Assembly (NCBI GenBank): GCA_017643365.1 | Contig: JAEPNO010000004.1 | Location: 1-64,000, forward strand | Source: Balneolaceae bacterium | GTDB taxonomy: Bacteria > Bacteroidota > Rhodothermia > Balneolales > Balneolaceae | Direction of reading: 5' to 3' | DNA length: 64,000 nucleotides | In this document: positions 10,257 through 26,381 of the stretch, piece by piece | Layout of the letters: every line of letters begins with the position of its first letter | Numbering within the stretch: the first letter of the stretch is position 1 | Translations under genes and position numbers: made by a program | The notes under the pieces: model-generated | The model's database searches: none | The model's input: only the letters and a program-made list of their open reading frames with translations | What the model was told of the DNA's origin: nothing

Positions 10257-10259
10257 TCG

Positions 10260-11027: not shown

Positions 11028-11043
11028 TGGTTAGCGGTTTCTG

Positions 11044-11245
11044 ATAATGAACGGTTTTGTATATGGCTCGTAGCGTGTAAATTAGAAAATTGTTTTCGGA
11101 TTAAGCACAAGCCAGATTTTTAAATTTTACTATTTATCTTTTTTGTTGGAAAGTCGTCAAATTTAAAAATTTGGCGACTTTCCAAATATGCCTTAACTTC
11201 GATTAAGCAACTGATTAGCTATGAGCTATATACGTTGTTACCTGT
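11044..11245 (-). repeat. attC-like site D (long form)
   Basis: The left core is ATAATGAAC (11044-11052) and the right core GTTACCTGT (11237-11245). The stem is 11059-11075 with 11217-11233. A large internal hairpin pairs 11146-11164 with 11167-11185 (18 of 19, the other a G-T). The left core does not match its own cassette end (GTTGTGCTT). About 100 bp between this site and the next stop at 11348 hold no gene. Confidence 0.85.
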
Positions 11246-11347
11246 AGTTATTTTCTGTTCATTTTTGTCCTAAATCCAATTCTATTTCTTTTTGGTCATT
11301 ATAAAAAACACTTTGTTATAGTAAGGAAATATTGATATCGTCAACTT

Positions 11348-11965
11348 TTAGCTATACATCTTTTTCCCTTGTATAACCATTTCTAATATTAGTAAAGGAA
11401 TAACCCAACTCGACCAAACAGATAGAGCGAAAATATCTACTGGTTCAGCTATTTCTAATGGTTGTAAGACATCAATAATCAACCTCGTAAATACAAATGC
11501 GGTAAACGTTATTGTGTAGCTTCTTAACATCCACTCCTTATGCAATTCAATTTTTCTTTTTTTAATAGAAAAGAACGCCATCAATCCTGTAGAAGCCCAA
11601 AAAAATGACATTGCCATTAATCCAAATTTATAACCAAGATTTACTTGTGATGTCAAAGCCAGATACATTCCCGTAATTCCTCCAAGTACTACACAGACCA
11701 AATATATTCTTCCCAATAACCTATGTCGATGAATGTTTTTATTCCGAAATGAAGGAATAAATTGAAAGGGTCCAATTATTATGGCAATAATTCCTAAAAT
11801 TATATGTGGAAGTAAAACATTGACTCTGGAAAAGTAATAATCTCCATAAGACTCTTGAGAAGGTACAACCATAGAAAATGCTCTCGTTAAAACATAATAT
11901 GCTCCAATAATCAGGATTAAAATATATAGGATATTCAATAGATTTTTAACGGATTTAGTTTTCAT
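11348..11965 (-). CDS. DUF2306-family multi-pass membrane protein
   Basis: Cassette 4 (11237-11994, ends GTTACCTGT/ACAGGTAAC) encodes this 205-residue protein with about six membrane segments. The conserved stretch of the family is visible: PHIILGIIAIIIGPFQFI, then NIHRHRLLGRIYLVCV and ELHKEWMLRSYTITFTAFVFTR, including the histidines and arginines at the membrane border typical of DUF2306. The function is unknown. The start lies about 20 bp inside the cassette end, and no promoter is visible between them, so transcription probably comes from upstream cassettes. Confidence 0.85.
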   Translation of the reverse strand: MKTKSVKNLLNILYILILIIGAYYVLTRAFSMVVPSQESYGDYYFSRVNVLLPHIILGIIAIIIGPFQFIPSFRNKNIHRHRLLGRIYLVCVVLGGITGMYLALTSQVNLGYKFGLMAMSFFWASTGLMAFFSIKKRKIELHKEWMLRSYTITFTAFVFTRLIIDVLQPLEIAEPVDIFALSVWSSWVIPLLILEMVIQGKKMYS

Positions 11966-11985
11966 ATGGTTGGTTTTGGTTAATT

Positions 11986-12120
11986 ACAGGTAACGGTTCG
12001 GGCTATGAGTAGTTGCCTGGGTTAGCACGAAACTTTGCAAGTACACACCAAACTGAAAATCCGCGAGGATTTTCAGAAGTAGGCAAGAACAAGCAATTGC
12101 TTATAGCCATTGTTGTGCGT
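11986..12120 (-). repeat. attC-like site E
   Basis: The left core is ACAGGTAAC (11986-11994) and the right core GTTGTGCGT (12112-12120). The stem is 12001-12016 with 12093-12108. A perfect 10-bp internal hairpin CTGAAAATCC-gcga-GGATTTTCAG lies at 12053-12076. It differs from site C by compensatory changes. Confidence 0.9.
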
Positions 12121-12127
12121 TCGTATT

Positions 12128-12583
12128 TTATTCTTTCATTTCTACTCTTATCAGCCGAATAGTTTTCGTATCGCTTAAATTTTCTACTGTATGAGGTGCT
12201 TCAGGGTCTTTGTACATTGTCAAAGGAAAAACAAGAGGTTCAGGTAACTTCCGGGTATCTATAATCACATTTCCTTCTGCGTCTCGGTCAATGAAATCCC
12301 CAGCTTCTATAATATATAAGACACTTTTCCATTGATGATGGTGAACAGGTTCAATTTCGTTGGGTAAGACAGTTACTTCTAAAACCCTTACTTTATCATT
12401 TTCCAATAGTATTTTATGATTATTTGGTGCAGATACAACCGCATCTTGGTCTTTTGGCCAATCCGCTGGATTTCCTGTTTTATACGAAAGTTTTTGTTCT
12501 TCAGTCGTTTGTCCGAAAACTGAAATAGTCGAAAATACTGCAAAGCAAATCACAGCAATTAGAAATTTAAAAGTTGATTTCAT
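12128..12583 (-). CDS. Secreted cupin-domain protein
   Basis: Cassette 5 (12112-12675) encodes this 151-residue protein with a signal peptide ending ISVFGQ. A single cupin barrel follows: LLENDKVRVLEVTVLPNEIEP, then the metal-binding HHHQWKSVLYIIEAGDF, and a second conserved histidine in APHTVENL. The three histidines and the glutamate suggest a metal-binding small beta-barrel, but no enzymatic role can be assigned. The stop is 8 bp from site E. Confidence 0.82.
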   Translation of the reverse strand: MKSTFKFLIAVICFAVFSTISVFGQTTEEQKLSYKTGNPADWPKDQDAVVSAPNNHKILLENDKVRVLEVTVLPNEIEPVHHHQWKSVLYIIEAGDFIDRDAEGNVIIDTRKLPEPLVFPLTMYKDPEAPHTVENLSDTKTIRLIRVEMKE

Positions 12584-12666
12584 ATTTTGTCAGTTTTAGT
12601 TTAGGTGCTTACTCTAATCGGTTTTCAGCTTTCCCGTTTTTCTTTGTTACTGTCGCTTGTCATATG

Positions 12667-12800
12667 ACGCACAACGTTCTAGTATAAACACAGTAGAATC
12701 TTTTGCTCGGGAACTTTTTCGTTTTCTATTGATCATCATTTTATTGACATATTTTCATTTTGCACTTCGCCTGCTATTGTGTTTATACATTGTTATCAGC
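12667..12800 (-). repeat. attC-like site F
   Basis: The left core is ACGCACAAC (12667-12675) and the right core GTTATCAGC (12792-12800). The stem is 12682-12696 with 12774-12788 (14 of 15). The stem sequence belongs to a different subfamily from C/E/K. Confidence 0.87.
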
Positions 12801-12842
12801 TTTTTTCTAAAAATATTCTGGAGGAGGAATAGCATGATTCCG

Positions 12843-13565
12843 TTATTCTTTGAGTGACTCCAATAAATTCAACATCTTAACAGACTCGTCCATTAGGTTA
12901 TGATATCGAGTCATATATACATTCAATAAAAACCTTCTTTGAAGTGTAAGGGCATTCATGGTCGATGCGTACTTTTTAAAGTAGTTTTCATCCACGTATT
13001 CAGCGTACAATTTATCGGGTAGAATACCACCAAACCCGACATTTATCACATGTCGATTGAGTGTCTCATAGAGCACGAGCGTACTTAAATCATTAGCCTT
13101 GATGTACCTTTCCTGCAGCGCATTGAATTTTACAAGTGCGCTTCGCTCTTCTCCAGTAAACAACTCCAGATCCCCGGCATTCAACATTGCTACAAAGCTG
13201 GTATTATTGAAGTTAGAGAGTGTACTTAGATTTCGTGTAAAGTCTATGTTGGGCAAATCTTTGAGTTGAATCGACATTTCAGCTAGATCTGACTTGAGTG
13301 TGTCAAGTTTATCCAACTCGGATTGACTATATCCTATCATTCTCTTGATAGCCGTGGTATCACTTTGAATCTCTTCAATCATGGAATGGACATAATCCAT
13401 CTTCCGTTTGCTTTTTTCTTTCAAGGTGATTGCTTGATTAATTTGTACTGCTATTAGTATTCCAACCACGACAAGAATGATCTCACCTATTGCATATAGC
13501 AGATATTTTGTGAATTTATTTTCAGTCATAAGCTTTCTGCGGATTTGGCGGATGAGGAAGAGCAT
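12843..13565 (-). CDS. DUF6090-family membrane-anchored protein (second copy)
   Basis: Cassette 6 (12792-13587) encodes this 240-residue protein. It shares the family start (MLFLIRQIRRKLMTENKFTKYL) and membrane segment AIGEIILVVVGILIAVQINQ with the protein at 10260-11027, but the rest is strongly diverged, so this is an independent acquisition rather than a local duplication. The soluble part is helical, with a predicted extracytoplasmic coiled region. The start is 22 bp from the cassette end, leaving no room for a complete promoter. The function is unknown. Confidence 0.83.
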   Translation of the reverse strand: MLFLIRQIRRKLMTENKFTKYLLYAIGEIILVVVGILIAVQINQAITLKEKSKRKMDYVHSMIEEIQSDTTAIKRMIGYSQSELDKLDTLKSDLAEMSIQLKDLPNIDFTRNLSTLSNFNNTSFVAMLNAGDLELFTGEERSALVKFNALQERYIKANDLSTLVLYETLNRHVINVGFGGILPDKLYAEYVDENYFKKYASTMNALTLQRRFLLNVYMTRYHNLMDESVKMLNLLESLKE

Positions 13566-13578
13566 GGATTAGGTTTTT

Positions 13579-13713
13579 GCTGATAACGTCTCGGCTATGC
13601 GCAGTGGCGGTTTAAGACCACAAACTTTTCAGCTTTGACCAAAAGTTTGATTTATGTACTGTTTTATCGTTTTGCACATCAGCCGCCATTGTCGTATAGC
13701 CATTGTTATGCAC
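13579..13713 (-). repeat. attC-like site G
   Basis: The left core is GCTGATAAC (13579-13587) and the right core GTTATGCAC (13705-13713). The stem is 13593-13610 with 13683-13701. The reading frame of the cassette 7 gene runs through most of it. Confidence 0.88.
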
Positions 13714-14544
13714 TTTTTGTTCTATTTTTAATAACTCTCCATCATCAAATCCTGTTGTTAAATATTCGGCTTTATGGACGAATGTCAAAGGTGAAATTCG
13801 AGTTTCTATAAATTGTTCAACCCCAGTTTTAACAATTGATTGAATTTCTTCCCAATTCCATTTTTTTGAATCTATACCTAAACTTAAATACCTCTCTTTT
13901 GGTGTAAAATCTTCTTGGCAAGCCCAGTCATCATTTTCCGAATCGTAGTCGTTCGTTCCGATTAAATAGGTTTGATAATCATTTTCAGTTTCTATAATTC
14001 CGAAATTAAATGCTTTAACAGACTGTGGAATTTTTTCTTTGTTGTCAATTCTGTTTATCCAAAAACTTATTAGTCGTTTGATTTCATCTTTATCGATTTC
14101 AATTTTAAAGTCCGAACCAAATTTTTCATATTCAACTTTGTTAAATTCCATTGGTTCAATTTTATCAAACCATTCGACATTCGTTCCTATTGAATTTGGC
14201 ATATCATCAGGACCTCCAGAGTCAAGTCCTATTCTTAACCATTTTACTGAATCTTCAGTTTTCTCAATTTCTACATTTATCACTGTACACCATAAGTCAA
14301 TATCATCAGGACACATCAAAATTGGAACGACTTGTTTTTGTTTACTGTCAAATCTATCCCAAACGAGTTTTCTTTCTTTTGAGTCTTCTAACCAATCAAG
14401 TAAAGTCGGTACGAGTCCAATTAAGTTTTTGTCAGGATATAATTCGTGCAAAATGTTGTCCAAAGATTTTCCGTCCACATTTATTGTCAAATGCGATTCG
14501 TTGGAATACTCACTTTTCTCATATTTTGCTTGAATTTGATTCAT
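13612..14544 (-). CDS. Cassette protein of unknown function, C-terminus encoded by site G
   Basis: Cassette 7 (13705-14563) encodes this 310-residue soluble, acidic, tryptophan-rich protein with no signal peptide. Recognisable patches include PTLLDWLEDSKERKLVWDRF, PILMCPDDIDLWCTVINVE and VKWLRIGLDSGGPDD. Acidic, tryptophan-rich proteins of this style often turn out to be immunity proteins, but I cannot name a family. The last 33 codons or so lie inside attC-like site G, beyond the cassette's right core, so the tail depends on which cassette follows. The start is 19 bp from the cassette end. Confidence 0.65.
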   Translation of the reverse strand: MNQIQAKYEKSEYSNESHLTINVDGKSLDNILHELYPDKNLIGLVPTLLDWLEDSKERKLVWDRFDSKQKQVVPILMCPDDIDLWCTVINVEIEKTEDSVKWLRIGLDSGGPDDMPNSIGTNVEWFDKIEPMEFNKVEYEKFGSDFKIEIDKDEIKRLISFWINRIDNKEKIPQSVKAFNFGIIETENDYQTYLIGTNDYDSENDDWACQEDFTPKERYLSLGIDSKKWNWEEIQSIVKTGVEQFIETRISPLTFVHKAEYLTTGFDDGELLKIEQKVHNNGYTTMAADVQNDKTVHKSNFWSKLKSLWS

Positions 14545-14554
14545 TTCGTCAATT

Positions 14555-14628
14555 GTGCATAACGCTACGCTAAAAAGCGTAAATCGGTTAGGTTGGTTTG
14601 GTTATGATTTTTAGCGATTGTTAGCACC
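14555..14628 (-). repeat. attC-like site H (short form)
   Basis: The left core is GTGCATAAC (14555-14563) and the right core GTTAGCACC (14620-14628). The stem is CGCTAAAAA (14568-14576) with TTTTTAGCG (14608-14616). At 74 bp it is the shortest site and has no internal hairpin comparable to the others. Confidence 0.75.
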
Positions 14629-14634
14629 AGTTTT

Positions 14635-15099
14635 TTATCCATTTTTTATTTTCAAATCTCCCGATATTGGAAAAGCATTGGTTATACCTTCAAGCTGATT
14701 TACCATTTTAGTGATTATTGTTTGGTCAAAATTTATTTCAAATTCGAGTTTGTTTCCCGTTCCTGCAAAATCCATTACTGAGCAATCTGCCTCAAAATGT
14801 CCAATTCCGTCACCTTTAATTTTAATAACTACCTGTCCTTCTAATGTGTCAAATAGTGCCGTTCCATCCAATTTGTCATAAAGTCGAGAAAGTTCTTGTT
14901 TGAATTTTTCAAAATCAGTGGTCATTAATTCAGCGTCAAACTGACCTGTGAACGCCCCTGCTTTGACCGTTACGTTGGATTTAATCCAATTATTATCCCA
15001 ATCCAATTCAGCGTCTGGGTGTGACAGTTTTAGTAGGTCGATTCTAATGAAGTCACCGCTGTCCTTAAGCTCAAAATATTTAGTATCGCTATTTGTCAT
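14635..15099 (-). CDS. WapI-type immunity-like protein
   Basis: Cassette 8 (14620-15116, ends GTTAGCACC/GGTGCTAAC) encodes this 154-residue soluble protein. The pattern DWDNNWIKSNVTVKAGAFTGQFDAELMTTDFEKFKQELSRLY, followed by a glycine-rich KIKGDGIGHFEADCSVMD and DQTIITKMVNQLEGI, resembles the WapI family of immunity proteins that neutralise contact-dependent toxins of the wall-associated WapA type. The match is by eye and the partner toxin is absent, so it would act as an orphan immunity gene. The start is 17 bp from the cassette end. Confidence 0.65.
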   Translation of the reverse strand: MTNSDTKYFELKDSGDFIRIDLLKLSHPDAELDWDNNWIKSNVTVKAGAFTGQFDAELMTTDFEKFKQELSRLYDKLDGTALFDTLEGQVVIKIKGDGIGHFEADCSVMDFAGTGNKLEFEINFDQTIITKMVNQLEGITNAFPISGDLKIKNG

Positions 15100-15107
15100 A
15101 TTTAATT

Positions 15108-15241
15108 GGTGCTAACGGTTAGTATATGAAAAGTAGGCGATTTCGAAGCACTAAACTACGGTTAAGCACAAAGTTTGATACGAGCCGAAACCCTTGAATT
15201 TATTACTATTTCGCCTATTTTTTATATACATTGTTAGCCAC
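15108..15241 (-). repeat. attC-like site I
   Basis: The left core is GGTGCTAAC (15108-15116) and the right core GTTAGCCAC (15233-15241). The stem is 15123-15140 with 15211-15228 (16 of 18). It is nearly a copy of site L, 4.9 kb away, while the genes on either side are unrelated. Confidence 0.9.
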
Positions 15242-15246
15242 TGGCT

Positions 15247-17796
15247 TTACTTTATTCGATATTGATATTTATTCTCTCGTTTTTTGAAAGCTTCAAATCC
15301 GCCTTCAAGTCCGATTAATGTTTCTCTTGTGTCTTCGTTTTCAATGGTTGTGCTCTTTATTACTGTTGATTGACTCGCTTCATCAATACTTAAAATATGT
15401 ATTAATTCTGCATCACCATTAACTACAAAATTTGCATTGTGTGTTGCAAAAACTATTTGTCTGCTTCTCTTTCTATCTTTAATAACTTCGACAAGATAAT
15501 TTGATATTAAAAGGCTGTCGAGGTGAGCTTCTGGTTCATCTATTATTATTGGGTTGTTCCCTAATAATAGTAAAATGACTAATACGGCTGTACATCTTTG
15601 ACCAAAGGATGACTTTTCAATAGGTCTTCCATCATACTGTACTTTTACCATTTTAAATTCAACATAATTTAGGTAAGTCATTTTTGTCAATAACTTATAT
15701 GCCTTAAAATTTGAATCTAAACCGAATAACTCAATTAAAAACCCCTTTGCGTTAGAAGCACTAGGATAGTTTTTTAGTGCTTCAATAAGAACTTCTTTAG
15801 TTGTTATGTCTTTTGGTGAAACACAAAACAAAATATCTTTTAAGACATTGTCGCTTTTGTAATTACTTCTCGCAATTTGCCCTTCAAATAAACTTTTGAA
15901 ATCACTAAATATTTTATCATTTGCAGCATTTTCATCAAAATCAAAGTTCAATGAAATGGGCTTTACAGATGTGTTTTTTAGATTTTCAAGGATTTCACTT
16001 ATTGACTTTATTTGAGTTTCAATTTCTGTTTGATAATCCGAACTTGCATTTATAGAAATGTTTTCATCAAACCCATCAATTTCCAATTGTAAAACATTTA
16101 TGTCGGCTTCTCTTTTTTGAATCTCATCTTCTAAAGAGTTAATCAAGATGTTTGCATTAGATATATCTTTTAGATTTTCTTCTGTAAGACCCTTGTCTGA
16201 TAAATATTTTTTTAATTCCGCTTTTTTTATGATTAGCTGTGCTTCTAATTCGGACAATTTTGAAATTGATGCTGAAAAATTAACAAGTGCAGTAGAGTCT
16301 GTAATTTCTTTTAATGCCTTAACAATCCTTTCTATTTCTAATGCATATTCGTTTTTTGGCTCGACTTGACTATTTTTTGTTTGCAGTTCTGATAAGTCAG
16401 CTACTAATAGATTATAATTTTCAATTGATGATTTCAGTTGGTTGATTTCTACTGTTAAATCTTTTAATTCGGCATTAATTCGTTTGTATTCTTCACTCGA
16501 AAATGATTCAACAAGTTTTTTATTTGTCGCTAGTTCTTTCTTCTTCTGTTCTAATTCTGTTTTTAAAGTTTCAATTCGCCTAACATTTATTATATGCTTC
16601 TTGTAACTCGCTAAACATTGCTTTAATACTTCTTCTTTATTTGAGATAAGTCCTAATTCATCCCTTTTAAGAATACGTCCGTAAACAGCACTTGTTAATT
16701 TATGATAGTCTTGTGCGAAATCTTCAATTTCATTTTGACTTAAGAATTCAATGTATTTTTCGTCAGCATCATTGTCTATGTCAACACTATCCTCTATGGA
16801 TAATATATTTCCATTTACATCACGAATTTTTTTGGTCGAAAAGAATTGATTTTCACCTGATTTTAATTTTTCGTGAATCAAATTCAATATTGTACTTTTC
16901 CCTGCACCACGACCACCAATAATACAAGTGAAATTTGGACTTAAATTAATTTCATTCTTTCCCGATAAGCAAAAGCTTTCATTTTCAAACATTGAGTCAG
17001 CTGGAAAATCTAAAACAATTTTATTTATCCTAATAGGTGGTGGAATAGGTGCGTTAGCACCTATATGTATTCTATATTCAGGTTCAAATAATATTTGTTT
17101 TAAACCTTCAAAGGTTGGTTCTGATTTTATCCAAAGATTTTGTTTGACTTGATAATCTGTTATGTTATGATTATCAGAACAAATAATCATTGGAATTTGA
17201 GCTTTGATTGCAGGAAAGACAATGTTCCTATAATCTTCTTGGTCTTTCACTTGACCTAATTCTAAAATATCAATATGGTTTAAAACTAAATCTGTTTTTA
17301 AAGCCATTTTGTAAGGCAAAGTATTAGTAATGTTCTCTATTGTATTTGCTTTACCTCCTGCGTGAACTGTTACTAAACCTCCCAAAGAATGTATTAAATG
17401 ACAAGTTTCTTTAAGGTCACAATGAATATATTGGTCACCACCTTTGTCTTGAATATCTTTTTTTGTAATTCCACAAGTCGATTGAAGTTTAATCCAAATG
17501 TCTTCAATATCGCTTTTTTCAGAAAATATGCCTATAAAATGAATCGAATCACTACCACCAAGTTCTGCTCTGAATTCAATTCCTGGTAATACCGTTACTT
17601 TTCCTTTACCTAATTCTTGAAGGTTTGCAATTCTTTGAACATCCATAACGTGATGGTCTGTTATGGCTATAACTTCAAGATTATTTGCAACAAGGGTGTC
17701 GATAATTTCTTGGTCAGATACACCTTTATTTTGGTAATCATATGATGTTTGTGTGTGGAAATGTAAATCCCACTTTCTCCATACATTTCCTATCAT
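15247..17796 (-). CDS. PHP-domain plus SMC-like ATPase (TrlF type), probable defence protein
   Basis: Cassette 9 (15233-17834) encodes this 849-residue protein. The N-terminus is a PHP phosphoesterase domain with the metal-binding motifs DLHFHTQTSYD (about residues 10-20), TDHH and CSDNHN. The ATPase follows: Walker A GGRGAGKSTIL near residue 300, a long coiled-coil hinge (about 390-620), and an ABC/SMC-type signature and Walker B (SSFGQRCTAVLVILLLLG, then IIIDEPEAHLD). This is the organisation of the TrlF-type AAA-like ATPases that are frequent in defence islands. A nuclease or phosphatase activity coupled to ATP-driven DNA sensing is plausible but inferred. The start is 38 bp from the cassette end. 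Confidence 0.85.
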   Translation of the reverse strand: MIGNVWRKWDLHFHTQTSYDYQNKGVSDQEIIDTLVANNLEVIAITDHHVMDVQRIANLQELGKGKVTVLPGIEFRAELGGSDSIHFIGIFSEKSDIEDIWIKLQSTCGITKKDIQDKGGDQYIHCDLKETCHLIHSLGGLVTVHAGGKANTIENITNTLPYKMALKTDLVLNHIDILELGQVKDQEDYRNIVFPAIKAQIPMIICSDNHNITDYQVKQNLWIKSEPTFEGLKQILFEPEYRIHIGANAPIPPPIRINKIVLDFPADSMFENESFCLSGKNEINLSPNFTCIIGGRGAGKSTILNLIHEKLKSGENQFFSTKKIRDVNGNILSIEDSVDIDNDADEKYIEFLSQNEIEDFAQDYHKLTSAVYGRILKRDELGLISNKEEVLKQCLASYKKHIINVRRIETLKTELEQKKKELATNKKLVESFSSEEYKRINAELKDLTVEINQLKSSIENYNLLVADLSELQTKNSQVEPKNEYALEIERIVKALKEITDSTALVNFSASISKLSELEAQLIIKKAELKKYLSDKGLTEENLKDISNANILINSLEDEIQKREADINVLQLEIDGFDENISINASSDYQTEIETQIKSISEILENLKNTSVKPISLNFDFDENAANDKIFSDFKSLFEGQIARSNYKSDNVLKDILFCVSPKDITTKEVLIEALKNYPSASNAKGFLIELFGLDSNFKAYKLLTKMTYLNYVEFKMVKVQYDGRPIEKSSFGQRCTAVLVILLLLGNNPIIIDEPEAHLDSLLISNYLVEVIKDRKRSRQIVFATHNANFVVNGDAELIHILSIDEASQSTVIKSTTIENEDTRETLIGLEGGFEAFKKRENKYQYRIK

Positions 17797-17825
17797 AGTT
17801 TCATTGTTCGATTTATTTTCAGCTT

Positions 17826-17960
17826 GTGGCTAACGGCTCTGTGTAAAGTATGTGGGGCTTTGTCGGCACGACATTGTCCCACAAGCAATGCAGCTACGGC
17901 TGGGGCGTGACTGTCACGGAGTGACCGTCCGCCCCATATACTTTACACTATGTTAGCTGC
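17826..17960 (-). repeat. attC-like site J
   Basis: The left core is GTGGCTAAC (17826-17834) and the right core GTTAGCTGC (17952-17960). The stem is 17841-17858 with 17931-17948 (17 of 18). The interior is GC-rich with its own hairpins, such as GTGACTGTCAC near 17906. Confidence 0.9.
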
Positions 17961-17979
17961 TGGGCTTTTTATTCTTTTT

Positions 17980-18705
17980 TTATTTTAATTGTCGTGTTTT
18001 AAGAGTGTCCTCTTTAAGCACTTTGATTATCTCCTTCTCTGAATTGTCAATAGAGGTCTCAATGTCGTCAAGTTGCTCGTCAATTGTCAGTATAGGTTTT
18101 GTCAGTTTGTCAATGGTCTCCTGGTCTATTTGGGTCGGTGAGTTGTCAAGTCCTTTGTAACTGAAATAAAGTCCCGCACCGCTCATTATCACGCTTGCCA
18201 CCAAAGAGATGACAGCAATTCTAATGTTGCGTGTTTGGCTTACTTGGTCATTTGTCTGGAAGCCGTTGTTAACGTAGTCAATGAGTGGTTGTCCGACCAA
18301 TATGGTTTTGAATGAGCAGTCAAGTAGCATGTTAACCAAGTCAGGGTCAACAAACTGATATGGTATGTGCTGATTACCTACAACCAGTTGTCCATAGCGA
18401 ATTTGTCCGTTGTTGGCCGCTTGTAGGTATGTGGTCACATAGCCATTTTTTTCAAGGTCGTCAAGTAGGTTAACTGTTGTAACCAACTCAGCAGTTATTT
18501 GCTCGACAACGTCAACCAAGTTTCCAGCGTTGTAGAATTGCACGTCCGCCCGAACTTCAACAGTCCGTGCGTTATAGTCCAAATAGATGTCCTTGTTGTC
18601 AAGTAAATGGTCAATGACCGAAGCATAATTTGATAAAATGCCTTGATTATGGTAATTGACAATTCGATTAACTATTGTCCGCTCAAATTGATTTAATGTT
18701 CTCAT
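17980..18705 (-). CDS. Cassette protein with one membrane segment, unknown function
   Basis: Cassette 10 (17952-18734, ends GTTAGCTGC/GCAGCTAAC) encodes this 241-residue protein. About 160 N-terminal residues form a soluble helical and beta region without a signal peptide. One membrane segment follows (IRIAVISLVASVIMSGAGLYF, near residues 165-185) and then a short acidic, coiled-coil-like tail. I recognise no family. The arrangement of a cytosolic sensor-like head plus single membrane helix occurs in several membrane-acting defence effectors, but that is only a hint. The start is 29 bp from the cassette end. Confidence 0.65.
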   Translation of the reverse strand: MRTLNQFERTIVNRIVNYHNQGILSNYASVIDHLLDNKDIYLDYNARTVEVRADVQFYNAGNLVDVVEQITAELVTTVNLLDDLEKNGYVTTYLQAANNGQIRYGQLVVGNQHIPYQFVDPDLVNMLLDCSFKTILVGQPLIDYVNNGFQTNDQVSQTRNIRIAVISLVASVIMSGAGLYFSYKGLDNSPTQIDQETIDKLTKPILTIDEQLDDIETSIDNSEKEIIKVLKEDTLKTRQLK

Positions 18706-18725
18706 GTCGTCTCTTTTTTTGCCTT

Positions 18726-18860
18726 GCAGCTAACGGTCTAGGCTATGAGTAGTTGCGTGGGTTAGCACGTAACTTTGCTAATACACATCAAGTTGGAAAT
18801 TCCTGCGGGATTTCCAAAGTAGACGAGAACTAGCAATTACTTATAGCCATTGTTGTACAT
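18726..18860 (-). repeat. attC-like site K
   Basis: The left core is GCAGCTAAC (18726-18734) and the right core GTTGTACAT (18852-18860). The stem is 18741-18756 with 18833-18848. It has an internal near-perfect hairpin and belongs to the C/E/K subfamily. Confidence 0.9.
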
Positions 18861-18864
18861 AGTT

Positions 18865-20013
18865 TTATTGTTCATTCCATCCGAGGATTTCGAATTCATA
18901 ATTAGTATTGTTTTCAGGACTTATTGGGATATAAAAGAATTCAGCTAAATCATAGTCTTTCACTATAGCTTCTTTTTGCCCTTTATTGCTACCACCAATA
19001 AAACGAATTTGTGCAGAAGGAAGCATAGACAAGGTGATTTCTCTCTCAAAGTCGGAACTTTTACTCATTTCCAATTTCCTTTCTTCGTCCCAATTACCAA
19101 GATTCTTGTGATTCCCAATAATGAATACTTTATCTTTTTTATTAGAAACTTTAACTTTAATCGTAACTTTTCTTTCTATTGCATTGACATTTTGATATTG
19201 ATAATAGTAAGATAACCCTTCTGTTAAGGCAGGTAAAAAAGAGGTTGAATGCCCTTTTTCTATAAAAGAAGAAATTTTGAAATAGATATTTTCTATTTCT
19301 CTTTCATTGAGGAAGTTGTAAACTTTTTCTCGGGCAGGTTTCCAGCGACTCCAATAATTTTCTTCATCAGCATTAGATAAATAAATAAACTTTTTACTTT
19401 TTAACTCATTAAAACTAAAATCTATAAATTCATTAGCAAGTCTTTCTTTGTCGTATGAAAAGTTTGGTGAGATTGCTATAAAGCTGTCAAATAACTCGGG
19501 TTTATGTATTAAAGTGGAAATAACAAATGATGCACTCAAAGAGTGTCCAATAGCTAATCTGCTTTTTAAGGTCCTGTAATTTTTGTCGATGTAGGGAATC
19601 ACTTCATTGGACATATAATTCATAAATGCTTTTTGATTTGCTTTGCCATAAAAAAAACCTTGTTTATCGTACACAGGTTTTGGAAGAAAGTCATCATTTC
19701 GACCATAATCTTCTAATTTCAAATTAGCAGGTATTCCAACTACTATGAATTCACTGTTTACATCTTCTTTATCTAAAAAGTAACTTATTGAATGCGCTAA
19801 ATTGAAAAGCTCTGTTCTGTGAGCATCAAAGACAAACATTACTTCATAATGCTTTAACGAGTATTCATTGTAGTAATATGGTGTATAAATGTATATTTCT
19901 CGATCTTGATTTAGCTCTTTTGAATGAATTTTAACCGTTTCAATTATAGGTATATCTTGTGCTATAAGTAAATTATAACTAAGAAGAAATAATGTAAATA
20001 ATATAATTCTCAT
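18865..20013 (-). CDS. Secreted alpha/beta-hydrolase (esterase family) with C-terminal carbohydrate-binding-like domain
   Basis: Cassette 11 (18852-20037) encodes this 382-residue exported protein. A signal peptide (MRIILFTLFLLSYNLLIAQ) is followed by an esterase-D-type hydrolase fold with the nucleophile elbow AIGHSLSAS (Ser near residue 160) and a candidate catalytic histidine in EKGHSTSFLPAL. From about residue 280 a beta-sandwich begins, with the pattern VFIIGNHKNLGNWDEERKL, resembling CBM20/CBM48-type starch-binding modules. The substrate could be a siderophore ester or acylated sugar. The start is 24 bp from the cassette end. Confidence 0.82.
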   Translation of the reverse strand: MRIILFTLFLLSYNLLIAQDIPIIETVKIHSKELNQDREIYIYTPYYYNEYSLKHYEVMFVFDAHRTELFNLAHSISYFLDKEDVNSEFIVVGIPANLKLEDYGRNDDFLPKPVYDKQGFFYGKANQKAFMNYMSNEVIPYIDKNYRTLKSRLAIGHSLSASFVISTLIHKPELFDSFIAISPNFSYDKERLANEFIDFSFNELKSKKFIYLSNADEENYWSRWKPAREKVYNFLNEREIENIYFKISSFIEKGHSTSFLPALTEGLSYYYQYQNVNAIERKVTIKVKVSNKKDKVFIIGNHKNLGNWDEERKLEMSKSSDFEREITLSMLPSAQIRFIGGSNKGQKEAIVKDYDLAEFFYIPISPENNTNYEFEILGWNEQ

Positions 20014-20028
20014 AAGGTTCTCAAAATT

Positions 20029-20163
20029 ATGTACAACGGTTAGTATATGAAAAGTAGGCGGTTGCGAAGCACCGAACTTTCAGTTAAGCACAAACTTTGA
20101 TACGAGCCAAAAGACTTGATTTTATTACTGTTTCGCCTATTTTTTATATACATTGTTGTGCAT
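20029..20163 (-). repeat. attC-like site L
   Basis: The left core is ATGTACAAC (20029-20037) and the right core GTTGTGCAT (20155-20163). The stem is 20044-20060 with 20134-20150. It is a sister of site I. Confidence 0.9.
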
Positions 20164-20179
20164 AGTTTTTTATTTCAAA

Positions 20180-20295
20180 TGGTGTGAAGCGGGGGACTCG
20201 AACCCCCTTACCCTCTGTCCTAATAAAGTCGATTGTTCATCAGTTACTGATTTTCCAAAGCAAAGGCTCCATTCTTCACACGAGGGTTGCTTCAC
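20180..20295 (-). ncRNA. tRNA-like / tmRNA-like RNA in the abortive-infection cassette
   Basis: On the minus strand a 116-nt segment starts GTGAAGC and ends GCTTCACACCA, giving a perfect 7-bp acceptor-type stem, discriminator A and an encoded CCA. Just inside the 3' side is a perfect T-arm, GGGGG-TTCGAGT-CCCCC. A second stem, ACCCTC with GAGGGT, sits directly inside the acceptor and encloses 66 nt that contain an ATCAG-TAA-CTGAT hairpin. No D-arm or normal anticodon arm can be drawn. The layout of acceptor plus T-arm plus one long central stem resembles the tRNA half of tmRNA. It lies downstream of the AbiJ-like gene in the same cassette. It may be a decoy, a primer, or a decayed tRNA. Confidence 0.5.
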
Positions 20296-20461
20296 GAATA
20301 ATCATTTTCAGTTTTTCCATAATTTCAGATTTTATCAGTTCTACAAACACTATTACTAATGCGAAGAACAGAAACTTACTGAGGTCAAACAGATAACTGG
20401 TTACTACATCTACTTTGCTACATAGGCTCTTAAATATTTTCAGAAAGGCAAATCTTCCCAA
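20276..20461 (-). CDS. Possible small membrane protein overlapping the AbiJ-like gene
   Basis: A 61-codon frame starts 22 bp inside the end of the abortive-infection gene. It encodes one hydrophobic segment (LFFALVIVFVELIKSEI, about residues 31-47) between basic flanks. Its TGA stop falls at the 5' edge of the tRNA-like element. The overlap would permit translational coupling, and a small membrane partner would suit an abortive-infection module. AT-rich non-coding DNA also yields such frames, so this is a weak call. Confidence 0.3.
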   Translation of the reverse strand: MGRFAFLKIFKSLCSKVDVVTSYLFDLSKFLFFALVIVFVELIKSEIMEKLKMIIREATLV

Positions 20462-21273
20462 TCTGCCGATTCAGTTTCCTTTATTTTATTTTCTTGTTCT
20501 AAAGTTTTTTCAACCGATTCAATAAATTTTATTGAGTTCGTTACATTGTTAAAAATCAAGACGCTTTCAGAATAATTTAGAATTGGATTATCGTGTGCAA
20601 AGCTTTTGTTATTCCTAATGTCATTAAAAGCTTCAATGACGTGAATTGAATACTTTAGGATTCTCTCCGTCATTTTAGATTCGATTTTGTCTTGGGCAAC
20701 TATAAACTTTACGTATTTCCCAAAAATCGCATTTAAAGATTCGTCCTTTTTTATTTCTATGTTGTGATTCTCACAAAGCTGTCTGATAAACTTCATAACA
20801 TATGTATGTAGTCTATCTAATGCGGCTTCTGGTTCATTTTTATCAATACTCTCTCTTATCGACTTGGCTAGTAAGCTGAAATCTTTGTCGTCAGGCACTT
20901 CTCTAATTACATCTATTTCTTCAACGACAGTATCAGCTAATAGTCTTTGAGCAATTTTCTGACATTCATCAAAGAGGTTTTGTTCGGGCTGAGTAATCTC
21001 AACGTACGACATTATTTTTTTGTCTTTCCAATAATCAAGCATTTCAGAAATTAACTTACCGACTTTGTAGTTGCTTTCTTTCTGCCAAATAGCTCTTATT
21101 CTATTTGCTTTTGAATCACCAAAGTCAGCATAGTTGTCAGAATAGAATTCAAGATTCAAAGTCTCAAAAACAAAATCGCTTAAAGTTCTATTCGAGAAAT
21201 CAAGGACATAGCCACCTCCCATTTCAAAGAACTTTTCCAATTTCAATTTTTCTCTTCTGTTTAAATCTGACAT
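20440..21273 (-). CDS. AbiJ-like abortive-infection protein (Abi_C domain)
   Basis: Cassette 12 (20155-21299) encodes this 277-residue soluble protein. The first 70 residues (FSNRTLSDFVFETLNLEFYSD...SKANRIRAIWQKESN) look like an AbiJ-type N-terminal module. The C-terminal half, LDRLHTYVMKFIRQLCENHNI through LNAIFGKYVKFI to NNKSFAHDNPIL, matches the abortive-infection C-terminal domain, a HEPN-related helical fold. The conserved RNxxxAH-like stretch (RNNKSFAH) fits a HEPN ribonuclease active site. The likely role is phage defence by RNA cleavage in infected cells. The tRNA-like element just downstream suggests a possible RNA partner or antidote. The start is 26 bp from the cassette end. Confidence 0.8.
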   Translation of the reverse strand: MSDLNRREKLKLEKFFEMGGGYVLDFSNRTLSDFVFETLNLEFYSDNYADFGDSKANRIRAIWQKESNYKVGKLISEMLDYWKDKKIMSYVEITQPEQNLFDECQKIAQRLLADTVVEEIDVIREVPDDKDFSLLAKSIRESIDKNEPEAALDRLHTYVMKFIRQLCENHNIEIKKDESLNAIFGKYVKFIVAQDKIESKMTERILKYSIHVIEAFNDIRNNKSFAHDNPILNYSESVLIFNNVTNSIKFIESVEKTLEQENKIKETESADWEDLPF

Positions 21274-21290
21274 TCTGTTTTTTTCAAATT

Positions 21291-21424
21291 ATGCACAACG
21301 GTTTGTATAAAAGCAGTTGCGGATTAATGTGCACTAACTTCCAGTTAGCAAGATAGTGAATTAAAACAAAAAACGGTTTGAGATTACTCACAAACCGCCA
21401 TTGCTTTTATACCTTGTTGTAAGT
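21291..21424 (-). repeat. attC-like site M
   Basis: The left core is ATGCACAAC (21291-21299) and the right core GTTGTAAGT (21416-21424). The stem is 21305-21322 with 21395-21412. Confidence 0.88.
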
Positions 21425-21429
21425 AGTTT

Positions 21430-22062
21430 TTATTCTACTTCAGTAATTAAATCTTGTCTACTTTTCCTAACCTTTTTAAGGTTGACTAACCAATCATTTT
21501 CTGTGTCCCGGTATCCTAAAGGAAGCAAAACACAACTTCTTAACCCTTTTTCTCTTAGGTTTAAGATTTCATCTACTGCATTTGCATCAAAACCTTCCAT
21601 AGGGGTGGCATCAACTTCCTCAAATGCTGCGGCTGCGATAGCTTGTGAAAACGCAATGTATGCTTGTTTAGCTGCATGATTGAAATTTATCTCAGGGTCT
21701 CTTGGAGGGTAACCTTTTAAAAGCATTTGTCTATAATTCTCCCAGCCTTCATTTTTAAATCCTCTAACCTCATTAACTAAGTCAAACATCTTGTTAATTC
21801 TCTCTTCAGTATATGTGTCCCAAGCTGCAAATACTAATAAGTGTGAGCAATCGGAGACAACAGACTGATTCCACGCAACTGCTTTAATTTTATCTTTTAC
21901 CTCTTGATTAGTAATAACATATACTTCAAAAGGCTGTAAACCACTGGAAGTTGGTGCAAGTGATATCGCTTCTATGATATTATCAATTTTTTCCTGAGGT
22001 ATTTTTTGACCGTTCATGGCCTTTGTGGCATAACGCCAATTAAGTTTATCTAGTAATTCCAT
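21430..22062 (-). CDS. Nitroreductase-family flavoprotein (NAD(P)H-dependent)
   Basis: This 210-residue cytosolic flavoenzyme is the third gene of cassette 13 (21416-23597). It begins MELLDKLNWRYATKAMNGQKIP and has the FMN-binding pattern IIEAISLAPTSSGLQPFEVYVI plus the C-terminal LGYRDTENDWLVNLKKVRK expected of NfsB-type oxidoreductases. It is separated by 4 bp from the DJ-1/HchA-like gene, so the two share a transcript, probably from the promoter at 22948-22955. It would reduce quinones, nitro-compounds or other electrophiles. The stop is 6 bp from site M. Confidence 0.9.
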   Translation of the reverse strand: MELLDKLNWRYATKAMNGQKIPQEKIDNIIEAISLAPTSSGLQPFEVYVITNQEVKDKIKAVAWNQSVVSDCSHLLVFAAWDTYTEERINKMFDLVNEVRGFKNEGWENYRQMLLKGYPPRDPEINFNHAAKQAYIAFSQAIAAAAFEEVDATPMEGFDANAVDEILNLREKGLRSCVLLPLGYRDTENDWLVNLKKVRKSRQDLITEVE

Positions 22063-22066
22063 TTTT

Positions 22067-22921
22067 TTAGTTTAATTCCTTTAATAATGTTTTTGCAGCA
22101 AGTTTCCCTAATTCATTTGATGCCAATGGACTTGATCCAGTAATCAATTTCCTATCTCGACAGACTGTTTTATCCATTTTAGTATTCATCAAATTGACAC
22201 CGAGATTTTTTAATTTTTCACTTAGTCCATATGGCATTTTTCCAGGAAGATAACCGAACATTGGTGTTTTATTGTCAACTGAATCTGGAAACACAGCCAT
22301 ATTATATCCCTTGTATAAGAATTCTTGATCATCCAAAGTGGTTGATAAGAATGCTCCTGGTCCATGACATAGGCTAATCGTAAATAAATCATTTTCATCT
22401 GCCCACCTTAGAATTGTCGCTACATTTTTATCTTCAGGGATACCAATCATTGCGCCATGTCCACCTGGAACAAAAACAGCAGCATACGATTCTGAATGAT
22501 CAAATGAAGACTTAATGAATTCAGAAAGCTTAAGCGGCTTTTCAAAGTTTGCTTTGTTTTCATTGTAGATGGCTTTTACATGTTCATCTTTTTTAGGGAA
22601 AGCCCACATTTCAAAAACTACAGGTTTTCCTGTTGGAGTGGCAATTTCAAATTCAAATCCTGCATTTTTCAAATGAAGCATAGGTAACAAAGCTTCTACT
22701 GGGTGATTTCCTGTGGAGAAGAATCTACCGTTTTTCATTTTTAAGTTCTTTTCTTCTGTGAAAATGACCAGAATTTTTGATTTTTTGCCTTGGTATTTTT
22801 GATAGGTGATATTTTCAAAATCTGTTTTGTCAGATACTCCCATTTTTAAAGCCATTTTGGATGGGCTGTATGATCCATCCGATTCCAATTTTGGAGCAAA
22901 ACCTAATATTTTTTTGAGCAT
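22067..22921 (-). CDS. DJ-1/PfpI (HchA-type) protein
   Basis: The 284-residue protein belongs to the type-1 glutamine amidotransferase-like DJ-1 superfamily. The key segments are VFVPGGHGAMIGIPED and the nucleophile elbow ISLCHGPGAFL, with the cysteine flanked by histidine as in HchA/Hsp31 glyoxalase III-type proteins. It is second in cassette 13 and probably detoxifies dicarbonyls or repairs glycated molecules alongside the nitroreductase. A TAnnTTTG promoter and a perfect ATTACC/GGTAAT dyad lie upstream, after the crp-like gene. Confidence 0.88.
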   Translation of the reverse strand: MLKKILGFAPKLESDGSYSPSKMALKMGVSDKTDFENITYQKYQGKKSKILVIFTEEKNLKMKNGRFFSTGNHPVEALLPMLHLKNAGFEFEIATPTGKPVVFEMWAFPKKDEHVKAIYNENKANFEKPLKLSEFIKSSFDHSESYAAVFVPGGHGAMIGIPEDKNVATILRWADENDLFTISLCHGPGAFLSTTLDDQEFLYKGYNMAVFPDSVDNKTPMFGYLPGKMPYGLSEKLKNLGVNLMNTKMDKTVCRDRKLITGSSPLASNELGKLAAKTLLKELN

Positions 22922-22947
22922 AACTTTTGTGTTTTTGATTTGAATAT

Positions 22948-22955
22948 CAAAAGTA
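22948..22955 (-). promoter_or_regulatory. Promoter -7 element for the DJ-1/nitroreductase pair
   Basis: On the minus strand the sequence is TACTTTTG, matching TAnnTTTG, 27-34 bp from the start codon. No clear -33 TTTG is present at the right distance, as expected for an activator-dependent promoter. Confidence 0.55.
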
Positions 22956-22976
22956 GGAGAGTGCTTTTGGATAAAA

Positions 22977-22992
22977 ATTACCCTATGGTAAT
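22977..22992. promoter_or_regulatory. Candidate Crp/Fnr-type binding site
   Basis: ATTACC-ctat-GGTAAT is a perfect dyad. If transcription starts about 7 bp past the -7 element, the dyad is centred near -43, the class II activator position. The gene for a Crp/Fnr-family protein ends 5 bp away in the same cassette. Confidence 0.5.
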
Positions 22993-22996
22993 AAAT

Positions 22997-23572
22997 CTAC
23001 TTTTTTGCTTTTTCGGCTCGCACTCGACTCAGACTTTGTTGAGTTATGCCTAGATATGATGCAATGTGATAATTGGGAACGTGTTGTTCAATATTAGGGT
23101 ATTGTTCAAGGAATAGATTATATCTTTCTAATGCTGTTAACTGCAATTGATTTAAGATTCTTTTGTGCAAACTAACTACATGCCGTTCTAAGTTTTTTCT
23201 TTGAAACGCTTCAAATTCTGGAAATTGAAGATATATCTCATCTAACTTCTGAGCGTTGAATTCAATTACGGTTGCATCAGTGATACATTCCACTGTAAGT
23301 GAAGCAGGCTCATTGTTGTATATTGCCATAAAATCACTAATCCACCAATCTTTAATTGCAAACTGGAGCGTATGTTCCTTGCCTTCCTTGTCAACACAAA
23401 ACGAACGTAGACTACCTTGAGTAACAAAGAAAGTCTTGTTTACAGTTTGACCTCCTCTGATTAAAACTTCTCCTTTCGACACCTTTTTTTCTTTGGAAAT
23501 AGAATAGATATATTCCTCAGCTTGTGCGGAAAGCGAAATTGAACTTTTTATTTTATTGATTAGGTTTTTCAA
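22997..23572 (-). CDS. Crp/Fnr-family transcriptional regulator
   Basis: The 191-residue protein has a cyclic-nucleotide-binding-like beta barrel (KGEVLIRGGQTVNKTFFVTQGSLRSF, then AIKDWWISDFMAIYNNEPASLTVECI), a long dimer helix, and a short C-terminal helix-turn-helix (NYHIASYLGITQQSLSRVRAEK). It is the first gene of cassette 13, 25 bp from the cassette end, with no promoter of its own visible. It probably activates the two genes behind it through the dyad at 22977-22992. The Cys pattern does not suggest an FeS cluster, so a small-molecule ligand is likelier. Confidence 0.88.
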   Translation of the reverse strand: MKNLINKIKSSISLSAQAEEYIYSISKEKKVSKGEVLIRGGQTVNKTFFVTQGSLRSFCVDKEGKEHTLQFAIKDWWISDFMAIYNNEPASLTVECITDATVIEFNAQKLDEIYLQFPEFEAFQRKNLERHVVSLHKRILNQLQLTALERYNLFLEQYPNIEQHVPNYHIASYLGITQQSLSRVRAEKAKK

Positions 23573-23588
23573 GGGTTGTTTTTCAATT

Positions 23589-23754
23589 ACTTACAACGCA
23601 CAGCTATGATGAGTGGGGATTAGAAAGCACTAATCTCTTGTCTCGCACATAGCCACGCCTTCGTTTAAATTTATTAATTGTGGCGGACTTCCCAATCCCC
23701 AAGAAAATATCCTCACCGATAAAACCCCATTCATTCATAGCATATGTTGGGCTT
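23589..23754 (-). repeat. attC-like site N
   Basis: The left core is ACTTACAAC (23589-23597) and the right core GTTGGGCTT (23746-23754). The stem is 23603-23618 with 23725-23741. An internal GATTAG/CTAATC hairpin lies near 23618-23634. This right core is the only one that fits the classical GTTRRRY rule. Confidence 0.85.
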
Positions 23755-23825
23755 TCGTTATTTGCACCATCTTGTGCTGCATGTCTATTTCCAATCGAAA
23801 GGATAGTCTCTCTCAGAGTAGCCAA

Positions 23826-24833
23826 TCACCCAAGGCCAAAAGCTGGTTCTGATACGCCATGATACCATAGTCTTATTTTCCCATCTTCAATAAGCCCATC
23901 AGGTGCTGTAACTTCTGTAGCCCATGAGAGTGAGTTAGCTGTTGCTATTGGTTCGGAGTAAATTTCATAGTTTCCTAAGAATGTTGTAGATCTGGCCATT
24001 CCAATGCTATTACCGGTTGAAAAAGGGACATACCAATAATCTGATGACTTCATAAGAGTAGCTTCATTGATATCAGGACTATAGGTAACCTCAGACGGCT
24101 GAATGAGAGGAGTATTGACTTTGCTCCAGTTTATTCCATCGTTGGATGTAGCTGCCATAATTTTGATTCCTGCATTGGCCCCTTTCCAGTCATCAGTTAC
24201 ATTCCACCCAGCGTAAATCATGTAAAATTGCTCGCCATCATACACTACTCCCGGGCTTGTCATAGCATGGCGGTCGTCCGTATTTTCGCCAGATGTATTG
24301 CGAGGTATAAGAGGTTGATCTACACTTTTTGGATGACGAGTAAAATCAATTCCATTTGTTGATGTAGCTAAGCCGATTTCGTAGTTTTCCACATGTTCAT
24401 TATCAGCTTCTCCTTCGCGATATCCAGAATAATACATCCAATACTCATTTCCAACCTTAAGTACGTCTACAGTTTCAAGTGTATTATCCCACCCATTTGG
24501 TTGACTAAAAAAGGCAGGATAGTCTCTTTGATTATTTCCATCAGGGGTAGTCCACGTTTCTCCATTATCGTTAGAAATCACAACTCCAAATATTCGCTCG
24601 TTGGGAGATATTTCTTCTGCTGAATAATACATATATAGTTTGTCTCCATCTCTTAATAAGGAGGGATCTGCCGCTAGAGAGAAAGGACTTTCAAAAACAG
24701 GGGTGTTGGATTGTATGAAGCCCGAATCAATTAGTTCATCAGAACCTTCATCTTCATTACAAGAACCTGTAAAACTTAGGGTGATGAGTAATAAAATAGA
24801 TTGAATTAAAAGTCGCATAGTTTCGATTTTCAA
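23826..24833 (-). CDS. Lipoprotein with five-bladed propeller glycosidase fold (GH43/GH32-like)
   Basis: Cassette 14 (23746-24897) encodes this 335-residue lipoprotein. An ATG at 24818 is an equally good start and puts the lipobox FTGSC nearer the N-terminus. The mature part has the DPSLLRDGDKLYMYYSA opening with its catalytic-base-like aspartate, repeated YWMYYSG and YMIYAGW blades, and TSPGVVYDG, all typical of furanosidase-type five-bladed propellers. The carboxylate in EVTAPDGLI is the candidate general acid. Substrate unknown; a role in arabinan, fructan or beta-galactoside use is possible. It is the cassette closest to the integrase. Confidence 0.78.
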   Translation of the reverse strand: MKIETMRLLIQSILLLITLSFTGSCNEDEGSDELIDSGFIQSNTPVFESPFSLAADPSLLRDGDKLYMYYSAEEISPNERIFGVVISNDNGETWTTPDGNNQRDYPAFFSQPNGWDNTLETVDVLKVGNEYWMYYSGYREGEADNEHVENYEIGLATSTNGIDFTRHPKSVDQPLIPRNTSGENTDDRHAMTSPGVVYDGEQFYMIYAGWNVTDDWKGANAGIKIMAATSNDGINWSKVNTPLIQPSEVTYSPDINEATLMKSSDYWYVPFSTGNSIGMARSTTFLGNYEIYSEPIATANSLSWATEVTAPDGLIEDGKIRLWYHGVSEPAFGLG

Positions 24834-24888
24834 TATTAATACAGATATTCGGCTATTTTCCCTACATTAGGTAGCATGAACAACAATG

Positions 24889-25024
24889 AAGCCCAACGGT
24901 GGCGTGCATGAAATGTAGCGGTTAAATATCCACTAATTTCATTTTTGTTATTTGACTTAAAAATAAGACAAAAATTTGGTTTTATAACTTTTTACCGCTA
25001 TGTTTTATGCGCGCTGTTGTGTTT
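24889..25024 (-). repeat. attC-like site O (integrase-proximal)
   Basis: The left core is AAGCCCAAC (24889-24897) and the right core GTTGTGTTT (25016-25024). The stem is 24902-24921 with 24995-25014. The right core implies another, gene-less unit between this site and the integrase: AAATACAAC at 25444-25452 pairs with it with one G-T. Confidence 0.85.
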
Positions 25025-25185: not shown

Positions 25186-25389
25186 GGATTAAGGTCGTTA
25201 CTATAAAAACCTTTTTTATGTTAACTCTTGACTTTGTCAAAAAAATAACATAACTTCGGCAAGCTTTATGCGAATCAATATTCGTATTTGATAGTGTAAC
25301 TCTCACACGATCCTGATCGAAAGCTTGGGTAGTCCGATATTGTTCTTAAGTCCAATTCCATACTCTTTTTATAGTAACGACCTTAATCC
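25186..25389. repeat. Perfect 24-bp inverted repeat around a hairpin-rich interior
   Basis: The left arm 25186-25209 (starting GGATTAAGGTCGTTAC) is the exact reverse complement of 25366-25389. The 156 bp between the arms hold a nested dyad at 25217-25252 (TATGTTA..TTGAC-ttt-GTCAA..TAACATA), a CGAAT/ATTCG hairpin at 25271-25284 and a CGATC/GATCG hairpin near 25308-25319. No reading frame is visible. It lies in the leader between the last site and the integrase and could be a MITE-like insertion, a gene-less cassette or a structured regulatory RNA. Confidence 0.8.
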
Positions 25390-25538: not shown

Positions 25539-26381
25539 ATGAAGAAAAGTGAATTACTTGTAAAGTACAAACATCAGCTTACGCTCAAAAACTTTAGTGA
25601 AAGTACTATTCGTGCATACACAAATGGCTTACATCTGTTCCTGAATTATCTGAACGAAAATAATATTAAAAAGGTGAATTCAGAGCACCTTTCTCAGTTT
25701 TTCTATGAATCAAAAAAAGCAAATGATTACGGCTATTCGATGATGAAGCAACTCTTAGCTTCTGTTAAATTTTTATATCATGAAGTTCTAAAAGAACCCA
25801 TCGATTTTGATTTCAATATCAAAATGAAAAAACCTTCAACTATACCGGAGGTGCTATCGGTTGAAGAAGTGCAACGATTCTTGAATACTTTTACCAATCT
25901 AAAGCATAAATCTATTTTCACTCTGTGTTATTCTGCCGGACTAAGGGTAGGGGAGATACTTAATCTCAAAATAAGTGATATAGATTCTAATCGCATGCAA
26001 ATTCGGATTCATCAGGCAAAGGGAAAGAAAGACAGATATTCACTGTTATCGCCAAAAGTACTAGTCCTTTTAAGGCAATATGCTACCGAATACAATCCTA
26101 AAGAATATCTTTTTGAAGGTCAAAACGGTGGTAAATATTCAAGCGCTTCTATTCAAAACCTGATGAGAAAACACCGGAAACTTGCCAACATTAAGAAAAG
26201 AGCAACCCCGCACACACTTCGACATTCGTTTGCTACGCATCTGTTAGATTCAGGCACTGATATTCGTTTCATACAGGAGTTACTGGGCCATAAACACATT
26301 TCAACCACTCAGATTTATACGCACGTAACTACTCGAAGTGTGAAAGAAATCCAAAGTCCCATTGAAAATTTGCAGCTATAA
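25539..26381 (+). CDS. Tyrosine recombinase, XerC/D-like, putative cassette integrase
   Basis: This 280-residue protein has a SAM-like N-terminal core-binding domain (residues 1-95) and a catalytic domain with the full set: Arg136 in SAGLRVGE, a Lys near 163 in KGKKDRY, His225 and Arg228 in TPHTLRHSFATH, His251 in LLGHKH and Tyr260 in IYTHV. The sequence between the beta hairpin and HTLRH has the length seen in XerD; the extra segment that defines IntI integrases is absent. The C-terminus VKEIQSPIENL nevertheless resembles the RSPLDxL tail of IntI. It is divergent from all cassette genes and sits at the head of the array, exactly where an integron integrase would be. It is the obvious candidate for moving the cassettes. 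Classical IntI elsewhere in the genome cannot be excluded. Confidence 0.88.
   Translation: MKKSELLVKYKHQLTLKNFSESTIRAYTNGLHLFLNYLNENNIKKVNSEHLSQFFYESKKANDYGYSMMKQLLASVKFLYHEVLKEPIDFDFNIKMKKPSTIPEVLSVEEVQRFLNTFTNLKHKSIFTLCYSAGLRVGEILNLKISDIDSNRMQIRIHQAKGKKDRYSLLSPKVLVLLRQYATEYNPKEYLFEGQNGGKYSSASIQNLMRKHRKLANIKKRATPHTLRHSFATHLLDSGTDIRFIQELLGHKHISTTQIYTHVTTRSVKEIQSPIENLQL

Follow-up and report, generated by a model that had tools for sequence, protein, structure and literature searches.

Which RNA lies behind the abortive-infection gene of this locus, and does it serve the protein encoded next to it? The stretch analysed here (the window, 64,000 nucleotides) carries a 116-nt element, which the first-pass annotation described as a mobile tRNA mimic beside an AbiJ-like gene and proposed to be the target, decoy or antidote of a putative ribonuclease. 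As judged by comparison of sequences, Bacteroidota have a conserved family of tRNA-like RNAs that travels with defence and integron-like cassettes.

The tRNA-like domain and its cassette

The tRNA-like domain lies on the minus strand at 20180-20295. Read from 20295 to 20180, its layout is 5'-GTGAAGC-AA-CCCTC...GAGGG-TAA-GGGGG-TTCGAGT-CCCCC-GCTTCAC-A-CCA. The outer acceptor is a perfect 7-bp stem of GTGAAGC (20295-20289) with GCTTCAC (20190-20184), followed by A73 (20183) and an encoded CCA (20182-20180). The T-arm, GGGGG-TTCGAGT-CCCCC (20191-20207), is also perfect, and is invariant or nearly so across all relatives. A further 6-bp stem, stem A, pairs the 5' strand ACCCTC (20282-20287) with the 3' strand GAGGGT (20210-20215). 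Acceptor, T-arm and 6-bp stem were all present in the minimum free energy fold of 20300-20175 (-41.4 kcal/mol, z -3.1). A scan for a T-arm with 7/7 acceptor pairs and CCA found one site in the window; after shuffling with dinucleotide content kept approximately, the mean was 0.0 (0/200 reached one). Neither a D-arm nor an anticodon arm appeared in the folds of this domain or in any relative. The structure first described thus holds in sequence, fold and shuffles. Blastn found no second copy in the same genome.

The element lies 3' of the Abi_C gene (20440-21273, minus strand), in one cassette with it. The encoded protein of 277 amino acids matches Pfam Abi_C (PF14355) with E=1e-11 and 45.2 bits against a cut-off of 24, and its RNNKSFAH sequence is a motif of the RNxxxxAH type, which together place it among the HEPN-type Abi_C proteins. 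The HEPN-type motif that had been noted for this gene (RNNxxxAH) is present; the AbiJ-like label found no support in PADLOC, which returned 0 families. A sequence search found no relative of the protein in the PDB, and none was found in viral contigs. The cassette is bounded by attC-like repeats on the minus strand, one downstream of the element (20027-20172; repeat families D3/D6/D7) and one at the other end (21281-21435; repeats I23, D5 and D6).

About eight gene cassettes with attC-like repeats between them occupy 10108-25000 (minus strand). They encode a WapI-like immunity protein, a PHP/ATPase defence-like protein, an esterase and others; the protein of a neighbouring cassette (17980-18705, minus strand) has a weak PADLOC match to AbiZ (E=5e-5). 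Beside the array, a tyrosine recombinase of divergent XerD/integron type (25539-26381, plus strand) scored 202.9 bits on the integron integrase model, below its cut-off of 265. Just upstream of the recombinase gene there is a perfect 24-nt inverted repeat (25186-25209 and 25366-25389, 156 nt apart), possibly an attI-type or regulatory site.

Relatives beside the Abi_C gene

When about 85,000 species of bacteria and archaea were scanned for the pattern, three copies came up, and all belong to Bacteroidota (Cellulophaga, Arenibacter and a Bacteroidales MAG). Among 397 genomes of the Cellulophaga family, further copies were found in G625, G832 and G816, together with a truncated one in G283. The G625 block is 99% identical to that of the window, and its genome belongs to another class; the Abi cassette of G625 reads as a recent transfer between classes, which bears out the earlier description of a mobile tRNA mimic. 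In G625 (L069 1558-3860) a recombinase lies directly upstream of the 98% identical Abi cassette copy, and more attC-like repeats follow.

The Abi gene stands just upstream of the RNA in seven of eight loci, the window included. These seven close loci share 66-100% amino acid identity, and the RNA is present, intact or nearly so, in six; G283 keeps the abi gene with a truncated RNA that misses the T-arm. At L056 the abi gene is likewise kept, with a frameshift in the short frame described below and changes in T-loop and acceptor. The eighth locus, the MAG copy (L025), has only the last codons of the Abi gene left, after a lipoprotein gene. Nucleotide identity to the window is about 58% in the N-terminal half of the Abi gene, 77% in the HEPN half, 86% in the block after the stop codon and 89-93% in the tRNA-like domain (G283 and G625 lie higher). 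Identity thus rises from 5' to 3', and the gene is less well conserved than the block and tRNA-like end that follow it. The upstream part of the block is 85-98% identical within the HEPN family.

These observations bear on the idea that the RNA serves the HEPN ribonuclease specifically, whether as antitoxin, decoy or sensor, in the way that RCd22 serves AbiF. AbiF is an Abi toxin for which an RNA antidote, the noncoding RNA RCd22, has been documented (PMC12373285). Adjacency in 7/7 close loci, a block more conserved than the gene and a HEPN half more conserved than the N-terminal half all speak for such a partnership. An analysis of the HEPN superfamily treats the N-terminal domains of AbiJ as sensors, and a search of it by terms gave no mention of a tRNA-like partner (PMC3710099). 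Against a partnership, L025 has the RNA after loss of the gene, G283 has the gene with a truncated RNA, and Abi_C homologues of about 50% identity in Bacteroidota and Proteobacteria have no RNA beside them. The expected pairing in other genomes was thus found among the close loci and ended at about 50% identity. Together with the truncation in G283, this departs from a type III toxin-antitoxin system, in which the RNA would be conserved with the toxin homologues. Three Proteobacterial homologues (L044, L045 and L046; 43-49% identity), which lack the RNA, are plasmid-borne and lie right behind restriction-modification genes.

Relatives without the HEPN gene

More distant relatives were sought by blastn and by covariance models built from the HEPN-linked sequences, the latter in a sample of 1,890 genomes. 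In G043 a tRNA-like element lies in a gap of about 1.9 kb inside a DISARM-like locus. This intergenic gap (L067 7361-9298) also holds tandem repeats. In two Prevotella-like genomes the element is downstream of the type I restriction gene hsdR, with a SIR2-like gene in the locus, and in G973 it directly follows a frameshifted tyrosine recombinase. We assigned the names Prevotella-like, DISARM-like, SIR2-like and hsdR ourselves from the sequences. In all, neighbours of five kinds accompany the block or its tRNA-like end: the HEPN gene, hsdR, a broken recombinase, a lipoprotein gene and the DISARM-like locus. G043 carries the tRNA-like domain; the full unit was seen after the other four. Model matches at 27-42 bits were ordinary tRNAs where inspected, except for two Prevotella-like ones of about 121 nt.

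The element is sporadic, being found in one of 40 genomes in the genus of G973, and a deletion has removed it from two sister genomes. In L122 and L123 (near the centre, minus strand) a deletion fuses the 5' part of the tRNA-like element into a DUF3800-like gene. Sequence comparison presents a family that is sporadically distributed in Bacteroidota, stands next to unrelated genes and is transferred horizontally.

Since the RNA occurs without HEPN genes, and homologues of about 50% identity occur without the RNA, a HEPN antidote cannot be the general role of the family, and the earlier proposal of target, decoy or antidote is not supported in that general form. Within the HEPN cassettes an antidote role is possible; as the explanation of the RNA, we consider the specific partnership unlikely.

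The conserved block and its short frame

The tRNA-like domain is the 3' end of a conserved block of 253 nt (20180-20432, minus strand, defined by alignment), which starts at the stop codon of the Abi_C gene and holds a short hydrophobic frame before the tRNA-like end. The block is co-linear in three families (253, 259 and 263 nt); where these differ by indels in its upstream part, the indel lengths are divisible by three. The possible short ORF has 24 codons (20276-20350, minus strand), and its stop codon TGA (20278-20276) lies inside the tRNA-like domain; upstream, the frame is open as far as a TTG at 20461 (61 codons). Its possible start site is GTG, ATG or TTG in 10/10 copies, and every family has one open hydrophobic frame, the frameshifted L056 being the exception among copies. 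A codon-phase test found no enrichment of substitutions at third positions, so coding is plausible but not proved; the frame may encode a peptide. In L056 the frame was lost together with parts of the T-loop and the acceptor end, which hints that the short frame and the tRNA-like end belong together.

The usual site of the element, 3'-terminal in a gene or unit, would suit a tRNA-like 3'-end signal, in which RNase P cleavage and the CCA end separate and stabilise the cassette mRNA in a co-transcribed array and the peptide frame is incidental. Conservation that falls on the acceptor and T-arm, and a short frame without clear coding selection, point the same way. However, about 130 nt upstream of this domain are also conserved, and the scan of the window found no such end on the other cassettes of the array. 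We regard such an insulator as improbable.

Covariation and a predicted pseudoknot

In G043 and the Prevotella-like copies, the 5' acceptor strand aligns with an inner strand of the window, GTGAAGA at 20279. This defines an inner form of the tRNA-like domain (20180-20279, minus strand; alignments A3/A6/A7 and pair counts). The inner acceptor (20279-20273 with GCTTCAC) forms 6/7 pairs in the window; its position is common to the window and the distant relatives, where 6/7 or 7/7 pairs form, and the distance from it to the CCA is 100-111 nt in relatives. Among eight aligned sequences four of its pairs were changed on both sides, and its covariation score was reached by 0/500 shuffles and lay above all slid versions. 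The combined score of stem A and acceptor on nine sequences, G973 included, was likewise reached by 0/500 shuffles. These shuffles ignore relatedness, and the independent lineages with acceptor changes number only three or four. In 7/9 sequences the inner stem has a mismatch at position 7. Stem A pairs fully (100%) in the nine sequences, as CCCTC:GAGGG or, in G973, CTCTC:GAGAG, with one compensatory change from C-G to U-A. The middle of G043 was not alignable.

Stem A and the inner acceptor together are predicted to form a pseudoknot. The window family has two competing 5' acceptor strands, outer and inner, and in this family alone the outer strand permits a nested three-way junction. This junction is predicted to be about 5-11 kcal/mol more stable, with energies computed without pseudoknot scoring.

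Could the element instead be a recombination scar or a degenerate tRNA gene without RNA function? The 3' ends of tRNA genes are common integrase targets. The T-arm is identical to that of the host tRNA-Leu(UAG), the acceptor of the Prevotella-type copies is identical to that of host tRNA-Tyr, the element is linked to recombinases and mobile cassettes, and some copies are truncated or mutated. Yet a 3' remnant would leave the matching, covarying 5' acceptor strand unexplained, as well as the co-linear conservation over 253-263 nt, and we judge this origin quite improbable.

Comparison with known RNA classes

ARAGORN found 0 genes in the element and Rfam gave no match at the gathering threshold; below it, similarity to tmRNA was confined to 17 nt of the T-arm (11 bits). 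The tmRNA covariance model scored 11.3 to 18.5 bits against a gathering score of 47. The element has the 7-bp acceptor, T-arm, discriminator and CCA of a tRNA and lacks the D-arm, the anticodon arm and any call by ARAGORN or Rfam RF00005. An ordinary tRNA or tmRNA was rejected on these calls and on the far too low tmRNA score. An ordinary tRNA with an intron, which the acceptor, T-arm and CCA might recall, is hardly credible because ARAGORN and Rfam are silent and every relative, at 100-111 nt, is without D-arm and anticodon arm.

Among the 31 host tRNAs checked, three encode CCA and none shares the acceptor of the element. A host tRNA copy was rejected, as the acceptor is in none of the tRNAs checked and blastn found no second genomic copy. 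An HDV-like ribozyme has a similar order of stems, but by our reasoning the junction of T-arm and acceptor strand has no nucleotide for the catalytic C. A phage or plasmid origin was also rejected: the element and the short frame have no match in phages, plasmids or viral contigs, a single 23-nt plasmid match (E 0.1) being judged chance. We found no earlier description of such an element in the open-access literature, outside which most subscription journals lie. This tRNA-like RNA family is absent from Rfam 15 and apparently undescribed in Bacteroidota.

A proposed function

Our best explanation, which as a whole we put forward tentatively, is a Bacteroidota RNA element of about 255 nt whose short frame and D-armless tRNA-like 3' domain act as a processing or translation switch. 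Its comparative part, namely acceptor covariation, the family itself, unrelated neighbours and horizontal transfer, is established at the level of sequence comparison. In the proposed element, the short hydrophobic frame would run into a D-armless tRNA-like end with an acceptor of 6-7 bp, a T-arm, A73 and CC or CCA, and the leader stem would be able to form a pseudoknot. Transcription would yield it either within the upstream mRNA, as its 3' part, or as a separate RNA, and the acceptor/T-arm minihelix may be recognised by tRNA enzymes such as RNase P and the CCA-adding enzyme. Because the stop codon overlaps the 5' acceptor strand, translating the short frame may keep the tRNA-like end from folding or being cleaved, and vice versa. 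Probably, tRNA enzymes mature the RNA module and a coupling to the short frame exists, so that the module could switch the processing or translation of a small membrane-type peptide. It would then be an accessory or addiction-like module carried along by defence cassettes.

A bolder version, which we hold to be doubtful, takes these elements as a new class of mobile control module in bacteria. In it, a small membrane-peptide gene ends within a tRNA mimic, and the mimic would be the RNA half of a unit, either toxin-antitoxin-like or phage-sensing, that joins different defence systems. Many phage-defence ribonucleases target tRNA, and some phages have tRNA genes. A conserved tRNA mimic carried with defence cassettes could tie tRNA processing or damage to the control of defence. 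The family also adds to the bacterial tRNA-like RNAs one that has covariation support.

Among known systems, AbiF/RCd22 and type III toxin-antitoxin systems resemble the locus: on mobile DNA, an Abi protein of HEPN type has a structured RNA as its neighbour (PMC12373285). In contrast to them, the RNA here is downstream, tRNA-like and also found without the HEPN gene, and the protein is Abi_C, not Abi_2. With tRNA genes of class II (Leu/Tyr/Ser type) the element shares the acceptor stem, a T-arm with TTCGANT, A73 and CCA; it differs in having no D-arm or anticodon arm, a length of 100-111 nt, an overlapping reading frame and a leader stem capable of a pseudoknot. tmRNA (RF00023) likewise has both a reading frame and a tRNA-like end that lacks the anticodon arm, and the weak T-arm matches recall it, whereas the element scores far under the gathering score, would not fit the D-loop and H2 of tmRNA, places its frame upstream of the tRNA-like part and measures about 100 nt against about 350 nt. 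In viral tRNA-like structures and mascRNA, as in the element, a longer RNA has at its 3' end an acceptor/T-arm minihelix that mimics tRNA. The Rfam models gave no sequence kinship to either, apart from a 15-nt mascRNA match, and the element, unlike them, is bacterial and resides in mobile cassettes.
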